From the NCBI RefSeq assembly GCF_009741925.1, contig NZ_WPCC01000001.1, positions 1 through 64,000 of the forward strand: a DNA stretch of 64,000 nt, in the 5' to 3' direction. The translations under genes and the position numbers were made by a program. Every line of letters starts with the position of its first letter. The stretch's first letter is position 1. Under the pieces are notes generated by a model that did no database searches, had not been told where the DNA came from, and saw only the letters and a program-made list of their open reading frames with translations. Of this stretch, positions 20,270 to 61,675 are shown one piece after another. This DNA is from Natronomonas sp. CBA1123. GTDB lineage: Archaea; Halobacteriota; Halobacteria; Halobacteriales; Haloarculaceae.

Positions 20270-21145
20270 ATGGTCACGGTGCGGGCCCCGGCGACGAGTG
20301 CGAATCTGGGCAGTGGCTTCGACGTCTTCGGTGCCGCCTTAGAGCGGCCCGCCGACGTGGTTCGCGTCGAGAAGGCCGACCGCACCACTATCGACGTTAC
20401 CGGCGTCGGCAGTCAGTACATCCCCGAAGACCCCGAGAAGAACACCGTCGGGGCGGTCGCGGAGGCGCTGGACGCCCCCGCCCACATCAGCATCGACAAG
20501 GGCGTCCGGCCAGCCTCGGGGCTTGGCTCCTCGGCCGCCTCCGCCGCTGCCGCCGCCGTCGGCCTCAACGAGCTGTACGACCGCGGCCTCACTCGCGAGG
20601 AGTTGGTCCCCATCGCCGCGGAGGGCGAGGCGGTCGTCTCCGGGGCCGCCCACGCCGACAACGTCGCCCCTTCGATTATGGGTGGGTTCACCATTGCTCG
20701 CGAGGACGGCGTGACGCAACTCGACGCCTCGATTCCACTGGTCACCTGCCTACCCGAAATCGTCGTCTCGACGCGGGACGCCCGCGAGGTCGTCCCCGAC
20801 GGCGCACGCATGGAGCAGGTCGTCGAATTGGTCGGCAACGCCGCGACGCTGGCGGTCGGGATGGCGCGAAACGACCCCGACCTCGTCGGCCGAGGCATGA
20901 ACGACAGCATCGTCACGCCCGCGCGTGCGAAACTCATCACCGGGTACAGCGAAGTCCGGGAGGCGGCCTTCGAGGCCGGCGCGACCGGCGTCACCATCTC
21001 CGGTGCAGGTCCGGCGGTCATCGCCGCCTGTCACGAACGAGACCGTCGCGACATCGCCGGAACGATGATAGACACCTTCGAGGAGGCTGGCGTCGAGGCA
21101 CGCGCCTACCAGACGGAAATCGGGAAGGGCGCGACGATTTACTGA
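20270..21145 (+). CDS. thrB: Homoserine kinase
   Basis: 291 aa GHMP-family kinase phosphorylating homoserine on the way to threonine. Visible motifs: N-terminal VRAPATSANLGSGFDVFGAA, ATP loop ASGLGSSAASAAAAA, and C-terminal TGVTISGAGPAVIA. Length and motif order match ThrB. A cctttat box about 29 bases upstream of the ATG suggests a leaderless transcript. Monocistronic in this window. Confidence 0.95.
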   Translation: MVTVRAPATSANLGSGFDVFGAALERPADVVRVEKADRTTIDVTGVGSQYIPEDPEKNTVGAVAEALDAPAHISIDKGVRPASGLGSSAASAAAAAVGLNELYDRGLTREELVPIAAEGEAVVSGAAHADNVAPSIMGGFTIAREDGVTQLDASIPLVTCLPEIVVSTRDAREVVPDGARMEQVVELVGNAATLAVGMARNDPDLVGRGMNDSIVTPARAKLITGYSEVREAAFEAGATGVTISGAGPAVIAACHERDRRDIAGTMIDTFEEAGVEARAYQTEIGKGATIY

Positions 21146-21185
21146 ACACGAGGAGCTTTTTGCTAGCATCCGCGAGCGGTTTGCT

Positions 21186-21292
21186 GAAAAGAGCGCAAAG
21201 CGCTCTTTTCGCATACCACAGGAGCAGAGCTCCTGTATAGCTCGCAAATCTTCGATTTGCTTACTGACGAAAGACGCCGCTGGCGTCTTTCG
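21186..21292. repeat. Array of four perfect hairpins, each with a 3-base loop
   Basis: Four successive perfect inverted repeats. 21186-21210: 11-bp arms GAAAAGAGCGC, loop AAA. 21218-21236: 8-bp arms ACAGGAGC, loop AGA. 21244-21260: 7-bp arms GCAAATC, loop TTC. 21268-21292: 11-bp arms CGAAAGACGCC, loop GCT. Stems differ in sequence, so this is not a simple repeat; only the geometry is shared. It lies downstream of thrB and ahead of the convergent membrane-protein gene. No function known to me. Confidence 0.85.
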
Positions 21293-21299
21293 AACCACA

Positions 21300-21330
21300 C
21301 CGGACACGACCGCAGGGAGCGTCCGGGTCG
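21300..21330. repeat. Overlapping inverted repeats in the hairpin array
   Basis: CCGGAC at 21300-21305 pairs with GTCCGG at 21321-21326, while CGACC (21307-21311) can pair with GGTCG (21326-21330). The two pairings interleave, so either mutually exclusive hairpins or a pseudoknot is possible. A T5 run follows at 21331-21335, so this could be a rho-independent-like terminator for thrB. Confidence 0.5.
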
Positions 21331-21336
21331 TTTTTC

Positions 21337-21409
21337 CCCACGTTTTTGCGCGAGGGGGTTTCCTCGCTCGCTACGCTCGCTGCGGAAACCCCCTCGCGTA
21401 AAAAGTGGG
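21337..21409. terminator. Very long hairpin between convergent genes
   Basis: Twenty contiguous base pairs (one G-T wobble) join 21343-21348 and 21349-21363 to 21384-21404, and the stem continues past a single bulge through CCCA/TGGG to 21337/21409. The stem contains T5/A5 and G5/C5 blocks. The 20-base loop is made of CGCTCG-type repeats. It sits between the thrB side and the stop of the minus-strand gene at 21413, suiting a bidirectional terminator. Architecture resembles 2000-2043. Confidence 0.75.
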
Positions 21410-21412
21410 TTT

Positions 21413-23794
21413 TCAGAACTCCTTGATAACGCCGTAGCCGACACCCATCACCACTCCGTAGACGACGAAGGCCAGCAGGAACCACGGCTGGAGCGTCGGG
21501 ACGAACAGGCCGAACGGCGTAACGGTGTTGACCGCCAGCGGCACCGCGATGGCGCCGACGGAGATGGCGGCGACGATGCCGTAGACGAAGCCGGCGACAG
21601 CGGCGGCGGTGGTGACCGGCGCACGGTCGAAGAAGTCGCCGAAGACGGCGTCGAGGTCGGCGTCGGCCTCGACCGTCTCGTCCATCGAGCGGGCGTACTG
21701 GCTGAGTCGCGGGCCGACGGCGACGGCGAAGGTCAACCCGAGAATCAGCGAGATGGCGAGCCAGACGACCCAGCCGATGGTAACGCTGCCACCGTAGCCG
21801 ACGATGGCGGCGAGGAACCGCATCGCGCCGCCGCCGACCATGTGGTGGACAATGAGGCCGCCGACGGAGCCGCCGAACAGCGACCCGAAGACGATGGCCC
21901 GCTGACCGCTCGTCCCGATGGCCGTCGAGGTGGGGAGGTCCTCACGGACGATGGTTCGCTTCCGGAGTTGTGTGTAGACGAGGGTGAAGGCGACACCGAA
22001 GACGAAGTAGCCGGCGACGGGCGGTGCAGTGTGCGGCAGGTCGATGGCGGTGGCGGCGGGAATCCCCACAACACCGAAAGCAACGGTGAGTATAGCGCCG
22101 TAGACCAATCCGACACCGAGTCCCCGGACGAAGCCGAGACGGCGTTCGAGCGTCCCGGCCGCAAGCGGCACGAACAGCAGGCCGGCAACGAGCGATAGGA
22201 CGAACCAGACGGCGATGCCGGCGGTGAGCGAGGGCATCCCGACGATGTTCCCGAGGACGTAGAGATAGGGGTTCGGCGGGAGGGCGCCGTAAATGAGGCC
22301 GATGCCGGCGGTGCCACCGACGATAGCGCCGCCGAGGACCGGCACACCGCGGCCGTGGAGGAACGCGGGGGTGAGACCGGCACCGCGAGTCCCCTCGTAG
22401 ACGGCGCCCAAGGCGACGCCGAAGAGGAGGTACGCTGCGAGGACCGTGCCGGCGATGTGCGGCGTCGGCAGGGCGAACGGCGTCGCCGAGGTGATGACCG
22501 ACGGCATGAGAAGCATCGCGACGAAGACGAGTAAGACGCCGTAGACCGTACCGACCTTCAGGCCGGTCTGGGCGGGCACGTCGGTCCGTTCGACACGACG
22601 GGCGCCCAACGCGGCGAAGACCATCGCGAACAGGAAGGTGAGGCCCAGCCACATGCCGAACCCGATACCGGCGGAGCCGCCGAAGCCGACGATGGCGCCG
22701 AGCAGTCGGAGGTAGACCGGAGAACTGGCGTACAGCAGTCCGCCGGAGACGGCGCCGGCGACGAGCGCCGAGAACATCACGGCACGGCTCCGGCCGACGA
22801 GGAACGCGGGCCGGAGCGGCCGTTGGTTGACGACCTTCCCGAACGTCGACCCGAGGACGACGCCGTAGACGACGAACGCGCCGAGGGTGCTCACCGCGAC
22901 GTTGCCGAAGCCGAGTTCGAACGGCGTCACCGCGGAGGCAACCGCCGGCACCGCGAGCAGGCCGACGAAGACGGCCAGCACGATGCCGTAGACGAAGCCG
23001 TAGCCGGTGGTACCGTTACCGCGGGCGGCGTGGCCGCCGGCGACGAGCGCGAACAGCAGTCCCAGCACGGCGGTGAGTCCGACCCAGATGCCGAGGCCGG
23101 TCGTCGGGACGCCGTCGCCGGCTATCGCGCCGAGATAGCGGAGATACAGCGGTTGTTGGGAGTAGACGATGGCACCCGAGAGGGTGCTGGCGAGAGTCGG
23201 GGCGAGGACGGTCGCCCGGACTCGAGGACTGATGAACGAAAAGGAGGGGAGCGGAATGGTACCCTCGAGCGTGAGGCCGTAACCGAGGCCGAAGACGAAC
23301 CCGAAGACGGCGTAGCCGACGACGATGTTCGTGTTCGTCAGCGGCACGTCGGCCGCCGGGATGAGCGAAGGGACGACGACCAACCCGACGACGACGCCCG
23401 CGAGGGCGCCGTAGAGGAGGCCGACCCCGGCCGCGGTCGTCCCCAGCGGCGAGCGCATGACGAGCGGTTGGACGAGTTTGCGGAACAGTGCGATTCGTGC
23501 GGTCAACCACGTGGTCGCGGCGGTGTAGGCGGTGATGGCCGGCGCCGCGAACGCGGCGAACACCAATCCGAGAACGAGGGCCAAGCCGAGCCACGCACCG
23601 TAACTCGCGGTGCCGCCGACACCGACGACGCTGCCGATGAAGGCGAGATGAATCGGCGCGAGGCTGTTGAAGGCCGCAAGACCGGCGAGGCCGCCGAGTA
23701 TCGACCCCACCAGGGCCGCCCCCAAAACCCCGTCGTCCAGCGAGGCCGCCTCCTCGGACGCCTCGGGTTGACTCTGTGCGTTGCGGGTAGTCAC
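21413..23794 (-). CDS. Large polytopic membrane protein built of five internal repeats
   Basis: 793 aa, very hydrophobic. A unit of about 145 residues recurs five times, recognisable by a Gly-rich block: FIGSVVGVGG(51)...YGAWLGLALVLGLVFA, YLGAIAGDG(219), LLGAIVGFGG(363), VLGNIVGMPS(512), and FLAAIVGYGG(659). Each is followed by a W/L-rich helix and then V(Y)G-rich helices. Units begin near residues 23, 192, 335, 480 and 628. Function unknown; no transporter or enzyme motif. N-terminal 20 residues are polar. Monocistronic, followed by the hairpin array. Confidence 0.8.
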   Translation of the reverse strand: MTTRNAQSQPEASEEAASLDDGVLGAALVGSILGGLAGLAAFNSLAPIHLAFIGSVVGVGGTASYGAWLGLALVLGLVFAAFAAPAITAYTAATTWLTARIALFRKLVQPLVMRSPLGTTAAGVGLLYGALAGVVVGLVVVPSLIPAADVPLTNTNIVVGYAVFGFVFGLGYGLTLEGTIPLPSFSFISPRVRATVLAPTLASTLSGAIVYSQQPLYLRYLGAIAGDGVPTTGLGIWVGLTAVLGLLFALVAGGHAARGNGTTGYGFVYGIVLAVFVGLLAVPAVASAVTPFELGFGNVAVSTLGAFVVYGVVLGSTFGKVVNQRPLRPAFLVGRSRAVMFSALVAGAVSGGLLYASSPVYLRLLGAIVGFGGSAGIGFGMWLGLTFLFAMVFAALGARRVERTDVPAQTGLKVGTVYGVLLVFVAMLLMPSVITSATPFALPTPHIAGTVLAAYLLFGVALGAVYEGTRGAGLTPAFLHGRGVPVLGGAIVGGTAGIGLIYGALPPNPYLYVLGNIVGMPSLTAGIAVWFVLSLVAGLLFVPLAAGTLERRLGFVRGLGVGLVYGAILTVAFGVVGIPAATAIDLPHTAPPVAGYFVFGVAFTLVYTQLRKRTIVREDLPTSTAIGTSGQRAIVFGSLFGGSVGGLIVHHMVGGGAMRFLAAIVGYGGSVTIGWVVWLAISLILGLTFAVAVGPRLSQYARSMDETVEADADLDAVFGDFFDRAPVTTAAAVAGFVYGIVAAISVGAIAVPLAVNTVTPFGLFVPTLQPWFLLAFVVYGVVMGVGYGVIKEF

Positions 23795-59767: not shown

Positions 59768-59830
59768 CCGCGCCGTGAACGGCGCGGCTTCCCTGCATGG
59801 GAATACCGGCTACCTACCGGCAGTGGGTTC
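59768..59830 (-). ncRNA. Putative IS right end / omega-RNA scaffold of TnpB
   Basis: Three inverted repeats: CCGCGCCGT/ACGGCGCGG (59768-59787, loop GA), TTCCC/GGGAA (59789-59803) and CCGG-based repeats around 59806-59822, overlapping the tnpB stop. In IS605-type elements the omega-RNA starts in the 3' end of tnpB and ends at the right end, with the guide just outside. By analogy the guide would be the flanking bases below 59764. Predicted from position and structure only. Confidence 0.5.
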
Positions 59831-61066
59831 CGACCCGACCTCTCCGAGCGTCATTTGCCGTGGTTGGCTCTGCTCGGAGGGGGCCGTGGCGCTGTCACGG
59901 GCGCTCCCATCCCGTGAGATGTCATCGCCCGCCGGTTTCAGCGGCAGGCTCTCACCCCACGGGTCGTGGCGGTCAGCGATGTTAACCGCCGCATTGATGT
60001 CTGCGTGATACTCCGATACCCAACACTCCTCGTTCTGGCACCGGAACGCGTCACCGTTCCGGTGCCCGATGTGACCGCACTCGTGACACGTCTGACTCGT
60101 GTACCCCGGCCGAACGTATTCGACTGGGAGCCCAGCCTCTCGTGCTTTGTCTTCGATGCGCTCCTGCAAACGAGCGAACGCCCATGCGTGGAGGCGTCGG
60201 TTCATCCACTCGCCGTAATCGAGGTCGTCGCGGATGTGCGAGAGGTCTTCCAGCACGATTACAGGCTTCTCGAATCGCCGGGCGTACTCGACGGCCTGTC
60301 GAGATGCCTTCTCGATGTTGTCTGTGAGTGCGTTCTGGTAGCGGTCGAATCGCTCATCAATCCGCCACTCTGCGGCGTCACGCTCTTGGAGGCGCTTCAG
60401 CGTCGTGAACATCTCTTTGCGGAGGTGGCGAGCGCGGCCACCGTTGATGAGGAGTGGGTCGGTCGGAGTCCTCTGCTCGCAGGCACAGCCCGCGAGCAGG
60501 TGGGCTTCGCCAATATCGAAGCCGACTGGCGTCACGTCTTCGTCGGTCGGTTCGTAGTCCGGTTGTTCGACCGGGAACTCGACGGTGACGTGGAGCGTCC
60601 ACGACGTGCGGTGACGTTGCAGGCGGAGTTGTCCCGCTGACGCCTCACCGTCCACGAGGTCGTGCCACAGCCCCTCTTGGGCGGGGTTGATACGAAGCGG
60701 TATCCAGAAGTTAGTGCCGCGACCGGGCTGTGGCACCCACCACGTAAACTCGTAGTCGCGTTCTGGCGAGTGGTCGAACTCGGCGGCTTGGTTGGTGAGG
60801 CGAGCCGGGTGGTTGTCGTCCAACTCCTGTGCATCGTAGGTGCCGTGCAGTTGCGGGACGTAGTTGCACAAGGCCGCCTTCGCCTGATACGGCAGGTCGT
60901 AGGGCGTCACCACATCGCTGGTGGCGGTCATCGTCTCGCATCCGGCCTTGAACGCCTCGTGGAGTACTGCTCGGTAGGTGTCAAGCAGGTCGCACAGTTT
61001 TTGCTTTTTGTGGGCTGTCGGCGGAGCGAGCGTCGCCTCCAGGGTTTTCGTGGTTGTCGCAGTCAT
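59810..61066 (-). CDS. tnpB: RNA-guided endonuclease TnpB (IS605 OrfB)
   Basis: 418 aa. RuvC-like triad in order: Asp184 (VGFDIGEAHLLAG), Glu273 (VLEDLSHI) and Asp356 (SEYHADINAAVNIA). A zinc ribbon lies between: Cys327, Cys330, Cys343, Cys348. All catalytic residues are present, so it is likely active. Directly downstream of tnpA. Confidence 0.93.
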   Translation of the reverse strand: MTATTTKTLEATLAPPTAHKKQKLCDLLDTYRAVLHEAFKAGCETMTATSDVVTPYDLPYQAKAALCNYVPQLHGTYDAQELDDNHPARLTNQAAEFDHSPERDYEFTWWVPQPGRGTNFWIPLRINPAQEGLWHDLVDGEASAGQLRLQRHRTSWTLHVTVEFPVEQPDYEPTDEDVTPVGFDIGEAHLLAGCACEQRTPTDPLLINGGRARHLRKEMFTTLKRLQERDAAEWRIDERFDRYQNALTDNIEKASRQAVEYARRFEKPVIVLEDLSHIRDDLDYGEWMNRRLHAWAFARLQERIEDKAREAGLPVEYVRPGYTSQTCHECGHIGHRNGDAFRCQNEECWVSEYHADINAAVNIADRHDPWGESLPLKPAGDDISRDGSARDSATAPSEQSQPRQMTLGEVGSEPTAGR

Positions 61067-61067
61067 G

Positions 61068-61460
61068 CTACTGGTTTTCCACGTAGTCCATCAGCACGTC
61101 GATGCTGACCTGCCCGGTCGTGGCGAGGAAATATCCCGGTTGCCAGAACGCATCTTCGAGCGTCTGTTTCACCTCCGGGTACTCTTGTCGAATCCGACGC
61201 GAGGTGACACCCTTGAGCGAGTTGATGAACTTCGTGAGGTCGGTGGTGGGTTTGGTCGCGAACAAGATGTGAACGTGGTCGGTGCCGCCGTCGACATTCT
61301 TGATGTCGGCCTCGAAGTCGTCTGCAATCTCGTGGGCGACTTCGGCGACGCGCTCCAGTCGCTCATCGGTGAGGATGTCGGCGCGATACTTCGTGACGGT
61401 CACGAAGTGATACTGGAGCGCGTAGACCGTGTGCGACCCGGATTGCAGGTGATACTCCAT
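61068..61460 (-). CDS. tnpA: IS200/IS605 transposase TnpA (Y1 HUH)
   Basis: 130 aa from ATG at 61460 (MEYHLQSGSHTVYAL); an ATG at 61484 (MSDFRRGK) lies in what looks like the target flank and is rejected. HUH pair His62-Val-His64 in TDHVHILF, and catalytic Tyr126 in LMDYVENQ. Full-length and apparently intact. Single-strand transposition would move the element. Confidence 0.93.
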   Translation of the reverse strand: MEYHLQSGSHTVYALQYHFVTVTKYRADILTDERLERVAEVAHEIADDFEADIKNVDGGTDHVHILFATKPTTDLTKFINSLKGVTSRRIRQEYPEVKQTLEDAFWQPGYFLATTGQVSIDVLMDYVENQ

Positions 61461-61483
61461 TTTGCCTCTTCGAAAATCGGACA

Positions 61484-61675
61484 CCCAATTCCAATAACTC
61501 TTGTGCCGTTGGGTATTCAGTCGGACAGACTCGCGTTGACTGCCGCACCGGGCTTACTCCATTCACACCCGGCGAAGACCGGTCGTGGCCGGCAGACTAC
61601 CGGGACGTGATGGCGCTCGTGCTGTCTGCCCTTGCCGACCGAAACGACGCCATCTGGGAGCAAGCCGACGACTGA
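61484..61675 (+). pseudogene. Partner gene, copy 2, 3' part beyond the insertion
   Basis: In the frame ending at 61675 the DNA reads FTPGEDRSWPADYRDVMALV, then LSALADRNDAIWEQADD and stop. This aligns with the C-terminus of copy 1 (AEDRTFPTDVTAHLETVVLP). The first 30-40 codons are degenerate: the homologous stretch appears to switch frames near 61490. So even apart from the insertion the gene has decayed. Confidence 0.7.

Follow-up and report, generated by a model that had tools for sequence, protein, structure and literature searches.

The tandem hairpins at 21186-21404 of the window, the whole 64-kb stretch of DNA that was analysed, belong to a large family of modular hairpin arrays. The family spans the class Halobacteria, and its copies covary, carry inversions, are present in one relative and absent from another, and sit in cassettes that are exchanged whole for others. 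With about even confidence, we favour the explanation that the array is a Halobacteria-specific mobile or recombining DNA element, one that acts through DNA hairpins, is remodelled by strand switching at replication, persists past stop codons and may have been put to use as a terminator. The array lies between two convergent genes and is nested in a larger cassette, and its boundaries were set from the unique breakpoints of an empty site at another locus. The features are as follows.

20270-21145, + strand: homoserine kinase (thrB), above cut-off for NCBIfam TIGR00191 / NF002288 and with Pfam GHMP kinase domains; its stop codon faces the element
21165-21181, + strand: cassette left end, AGCATCCGC-GAGCGGTT, a reduced hairpin P1 with conserved linkers; the same linkers recur in other copies in the host genome and in relatives
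21182-21297, + strand: tandem-hairpin array (module), TGCT[HPa]GCATACC[HPb]ATAGCTC[HPc]TTACTGA[HPz]AACCA
21186-21210, + strand: hairpin HPa, stem 11, loop AAA
21218-21236, + strand: hairpin HPb, stem 8, loop AGA (TCT in a paralogue in genome G009)
21244-21260, + strand: hairpin HPc, stem 7, loop TTC
21268-21292, + strand: hairpin HPz, stem 11, loop GCT; all arrays end in this conserved hairpin and then read AACCA(C)
21300-21326, + strand: cassette hairpin P2, CCGGAC..GTCCGG, with the GACCGCAGGGAG motif (GA, an X-X' pair, C-GNA-G)
21331-21348, + strand: core of the cassette, TTTTTCCCCACGTTTTTG, which is conserved and gives + strand transcripts their T-tracts
21343-21404, + strand: cassette hairpin P5, closed by a T/A-tract stem (arms of 21 nt), from the fold
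21400-21409, - strand: cassette right end AAAAAGTGGG (CCCACTTTTT on the - strand), a T-tract that directly follows the - strand gene's stop codon
21413-23794, - strand: 793-aa ORF, family unassigned, whose stop codon abuts the cassette

The preliminary description had reported four perfect stem-loops with three-base loops, an interleaved pair and a hairpin of 20+ bp, all with differing stems and standing shoulder to shoulder, and this anatomy holds throughout. Exactly four such stem-loops are present (21186-21210, 21218-21236, 21244-21260 and 21268-21292), the interleaved pair lies at approximately 21300-21331 (CGGAC/GTCCG with ACGAC/GTCGT), and the long hairpin has arms of 21 nt at 21343-21363 and 21384-21404 that are 95% complementary; the stems are mutually unrelated, and the hairpins together fill 21186-21404, a clustering far beyond chance. 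An origin by chance or as an artefact of base composition is next to impossible. Single triloop hairpins with a stem of at least 7 are indeed as frequent in the window as expected (12 against a mean of 12.1 in 100 third-order Markov windows), but four of them fall inside 107 bp, where the 100 simulated windows held at most two per 110 bp, and the segment 21160-21412 folds far below its shuffles on both strands, with RNA or DNA parameters (z = -11.6, -10.9 and -11.35). Together with membership of a repeated family with covariation, this already refutes chance. As to the neighbouring 793-aa ORF (21413-23794, - strand), no Pfam or NCBIfam family matched it, and a reading of its sequence by eye points to an apparently repetitive membrane protein.

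A search for other loci with three-base-loop arrays, which had been proposed as a check, yielded many. The arrays of the family are modular, with 2, 4 or 6 triloop hairpins joined by constant linkers of 5-7 nt and ending in HPz-AACCAC; the conserved linkers read GTCGTT or TTTGCT, then TGATGA or GCATGA, then AACCAC. The minimal unit is a two-hairpin module of ~62 nt, for example gtcgtt[CGAGAGAGC nnn GCTCTCTCG]tgatga[CGAAAGACGC nnn GCGTCTTTCG]aaccac. We built a covariance model, R1, from 22 two-hairpin copies and defined the family by at least two triloop hairpins, the last of the CGAAAGACG type, with TGA/ATGA linkers, a following AACCAC and a match to R1. The window array has all of these features and matches R1 at 21237-21298 (E=2.1e-9), which places it in this Halobacteria tandem-hairpin family. 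The model found the module in 173 of 194 Halobacteria genomes, representing 61 of 65 genera, and in 40 of 43 Halobacteria in a second set; the same search found it in none of 204 genomes of other Halobacteriota. All 18 plasmid records with the module are haloarchaeal, none of those carrying annotation has a feature at the match, and phage records gave no module match. Searching Rfam returned nothing at or above a family gathering score, and the sub-threshold matches were at chance level (e.g., TLS-PK1 with 24 bits against a gathering score of 80). No description of the element was found in the literature searched, a coverage outside which most subscription journals and preprints lie. Abundant and unannotated in almost every haloarchaeal genome searched, the element seems to be unnamed. 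At three loci (L219, L273 and L274, in metagenome-assembled genomes of the host's genus), six triloop hairpins follow one another on short linkers that are constant, and their regular spacing of a few nucleotides seems to be kept.

The enclosing cassette is likewise a repeated structure. Its common architecture is AGCATCCGC[P1]GCGGTT, P2, often a branched P3/P4 domain, the core, P5 and AAAAAGTGGG, with linkers that are constant and stems that differ among copies; the array module is inserted in the linker between P1 and P2. The core motif TTTTTCCCCAMGTTTTTG at 21331 has 17 copies in the host genome at no more than two mismatches, the reversed pattern has none there, and the motif is present in 29 of 60 relatives. 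When a two-part cassette pattern was run over 85,000 species, matches appeared in Halobacteria only. In the recurrent cassette motif GA-X-C-GNA-G-X'-GAG, the X-X' pair is GC in 56 copies, CG in 44, AT in 28, GT in 3 and GG in 2. RNAalifold returned 6 pairs with two-sided changes in P3/P4 and zero consensus pairs in P1, the latter because the alignment mixes stem lengths. Further hairpin-pair inserts were noted in three cassettes (L098, L113 and L137; e.g., TCATCAGACCGC..GATTGCCCATCAGATTCC..GGAATCTGATGA) and apparently represent another module family. In another family of the order (L339-L343), a related post-stop cassette has the stem AAATTTTGC..GCAAAATTT, and behind it come two conserved motifs, AAAAGCACTCCTCCCTCC and CATCGGTCGTCGGCCCGC.

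Covariation in the module, another of the proposed checks, is real: geometry is kept while stem sequence varies. In the module alignment 95.4% of cells are paired and two-sided changes occur in 12 of 22 pairs (38 cells), with one-sided changes numbering 4; the pairing signal is destroyed when the partner is slid and was reached in 0 of 500 shuffles. Compensatory selection for structure, which the preliminary description took to be implied by the differing stems, is not borne out as stated. G-U pairs make up only 4 of 433 paired cells (0.9%), against 12.6% in 16S rRNA of the same group, and in RNAfold structures the G-U share of the cassettes is 3.4-3.8% on either strand, against 12% for 16S; pairing is therefore of the Watson-Crick type and nearly strand-neutral. 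Moreover, a single template-switching event is able to create a perfect stem or to repair one (PMC8794818). Since G-U pairs are nearly absent, loops and whole hairpins are inverted and template switching can suffice, perfect stems alone are no proof of selection at the RNA level. Of the pairing measures, we relied only on the near-absence of G-U, because 16S also shows more two-sided than one-sided changes, so that these counts alone were rejected as a discriminator. A comparison of interior G-T and A-C stem mismatches as evidence of DNA-level pairing was dropped, because 16S rRNA gave zero G-T under the same rule. Most array hairpins (79 of 91) are closed by triloops, and GNA or the complementary TNC accounts for 55 of 81 loops; in RNA, hairpins usually favour tetraloops. 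DNA mini-hairpins of the GNA/GCGAAGC type have exceptional stability (PMC4686876).

The behaviour of orthologous sites was analysed in three genomes whose flanks are ~93-97% identical. Orthologous hairpins differ by inversions, of which we observed five distinct events between perfect arms of 7-10 bp: four are exact (GGA/TCC, AGA/TCT, a 15-nt segment and a 32-nt segment) and the fifth is a 17-nt segment with one mismatch. Apparent inversions of 4 nt without arms were counted as chance. At one site the whole cassette is replaced by another type (L042 vs L083), at another the array differs in length between two genomes, with 2 hairpins against 6 (L286 vs L274), and the copy number and position of the module vary between close relatives. 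Two empty sites were found. At the first, the host genome carries a two-hairpin array between GCGGTT and CTCCGG (L036), where two relatives (L077 and L094) read GCGGTTCTCCGG (GCGGTT^CTCCGG); at the second, an array sits inside a hairpin loop in G009 (L081), where the host locus L034 reads CGAAGCGAGG (CGAAG^CGAGG). Both have unique breakpoints and no target duplication, and both could be precise deletions instead of insertions. No mobilising enzyme was found, and no movement of the module was observed in the comparisons made. In order to rationalise these changes on the molecular level, we hypothesise that the hairpins form in single-stranded DNA at replication, where strand switching would restore perfect stems and flip loops. 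Gene 3' ends would tolerate the element, and this may be the main reason for its persistence, since it would settle past stop codons where disruption is cheap, and the T-tracts on both cassette strands could then serve as terminators for the flanking genes.

An alternative source of mobility would be a Y1 HUH transposase recognising single-stranded DNA hairpins, which would make the array a non-autonomous IS200/IS605-type element resembling REP/BIME repeats. Hairpin ends, the lack of target duplication and the intergenic spread would fit, as would the IS200/IS605 genes in the window (61068-61484) and in many relatives. However, two genomes that are each 99% complete have no PF01797 match and still carry 21 (G039) and 12 (G038) module matches, counted per genome among the candidates scored. 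Moreover, the IS right ends examined are unlike the module, and the insertion sites have no fixed flanking tetranucleotide in common. Measured against an IS200/IS605-derived MITE or a RAYT-associated REP, the two empty sites show the expected lack of target duplication, and the transposase is missing from G039 and G038. We therefore do not class the element as an IS200/IS605 derivative, since genomes with many copies lack the transposase, and consider such an origin improbable. One module lying near an IS right end in G007 was discarded as a link, as the IS's own end is a different hairpin. The IS200/IS605-type pair in the window (59810-61484, - strand) consists of a TnpA-like Y1_Tnp protein of 138 aa and a TnpB-like protein of 418 aa with a Cas12f1-like TNB domain; its right end is likewise a different hairpin (GGTATTCCCATGC.GGGAAGCC..), unrelated to the array.

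By analogy, the element appears to behave most like mitochondrial double-hairpin elements (DHEs) and, more loosely, like REP/BIME repeats. The DHEs of Allomyces and the repetitive hairpin-forming elements of sponges are also very short, consist of two adjacent hairpins and are spread between genes, and no flanking duplications were reported for those of Allomyces (PMC2800124). The haloarchaeal element shares the two-hairpin structure and the empty sites without duplication, but it is archaeal and class-wide, has fixed linkers, arrays of 2-6 hairpins and strongly variable stems, and is nested in a post-stop cassette; descent from mitochondrial DHEs is not claimed. REP/BIME and the CGTC/GTAG-tagged palindromic repeats are, like it, short palindromes that lie between genes, in most cases convergent or co-directional ones (PMC3733652). 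In REPs the sequence of the palindrome is conserved, whereas the haloarchaeal element conserves linkers while its stems covary, and in the genomes tested it shows no link to a RAYT transposase; because its palindrome sequence is not conserved within a genome, we do not class it as a REP. Perfect stems and multi-base compensatory changes in single events are also features of the template-switch hairpins of Monttinen and Loytynoja (2022), which concern RNA genes and not a dispersed intergenic family (PMC8794818). In plastid DNA, too, hairpins in non-coding sequence have loops that flip between close relatives. The haloarchaeal flips share these features, but they occur in archaea, in arrays of a repeated family, and involve not only loops but entire hairpins. 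PMC5910586 mentions the small inversions associated with plastid hairpins.

An array bound by a chromosome or repair protein, and under selection for its hairpin or cruciform shape, might likewise be expected to have linkers of fixed length, a conserved geometry combined with free stem sequence and a class-wide spread. We found no candidate and know of no protein for such an array, and copy number and position differ between close relatives; this explanation is less probable still than the transposase one. Geometry also lies at the centre of an elaboration of the DNA-element reading that we offer tentatively, with confidence well below even. Here, the inherited trait would be hairpin geometry and not stem sequence: single-stranded DNA hairpins with GNA-type triloops on fixed linkers would be copy-corrected and flipped by strand switching during replication. 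They would spread from one gene 3' end to another and act there as exchangeable cassettes for termination in both directions.

The placement of the cassettes bears on the main competing explanation, which is that they and their arrays act as transcribed RNA, either terminating transcription in both directions or forming 3' UTR structures that block convergent read-through and protect mRNA 3' ends. In Natronomonas, the genus of the host, 78 of 103 cassettes begin 0-7 nt past a stop codon, that of the gene which reads into the CCCACTTTTT end (distances from a codon-based gene caller trained on the window), and T-tracts are carried on both strands. Cassettes are enriched between convergent genes (45/102 vs 12/60, p=0.002) and depleted between divergent genes (6/102 vs 12/60, p=0.009), with the background taken from this single window only. 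In other families, 12 of 30 copies examined have the module 11-21 nt past a stop codon together with a T-rich stretch, and the module there sits within a stem of the form AAATTTTGC..GCAAAATTT. Further support for an RNA-level role comes from Haloferax volcanii, in which T stretches and one tested hairpin terminate transcription (PMC7237163), and from the preference for one strand: the GA/GNA motif occurs 133 times on one strand against 11 on the other and, of 103 copies, 98 have the more stable fold on the + strand. This preference suggests that selection acts on a single strand, possibly at the RNA level. On the other hand, G-U pairs are almost absent and their share is alike on both strands, orthologous sites have gained, lost or inverted their arrays, and a simple scan scored zero terminator-like sites. 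In addition, the first T-tract precedes the hairpins on the strand of the abutting gene, so the hairpins would be dispensable for termination. An RNA-level role is thus a possibility that we rate clearly below even. Of the roles listed in the preliminary description (structured RNA, barrier between convergent genes, protein-binding array, scar of a mobile element), those of a mobile-element-like sequence and a convergent-gene site are the parts that appear supported at the sequence level. The tight fit to stop codons may also suit a host function, and a host role in DNA or RNA retains some probability, because the strand bias of the motif and the greater stability of the + strand argue against a purely passive element.

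As the element sits where transcripts end, it bears on gene termination in haloarchaea. It resembles the Haloferax volcanii terminators in having T stretches and some hairpins at gene 3' ends, and the accessible text of PMC7237163 describes no large conserved multi-hairpin cassette with nested arrays. The family also offers natural replicates for the long-standing question of whether perfect covarying stems always reflect selection on RNA or are made and kept by DNA replication, a question that the inversions between sister genomes make testable, and covariation-based RNA discovery in archaea calls for care with such elements. Head-to-head pairs of cassettes were seen within one intergenic region (L034/L035, L037/L038, L079, L088, L095 and L132), in which mostly each cassette abuts one stop codon. 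Some cassettes lie away from stop codons (L153, L156, L041 and L139); these often end ~40 nt ahead of the next gene's start codon, just upstream of the expected promoter position.
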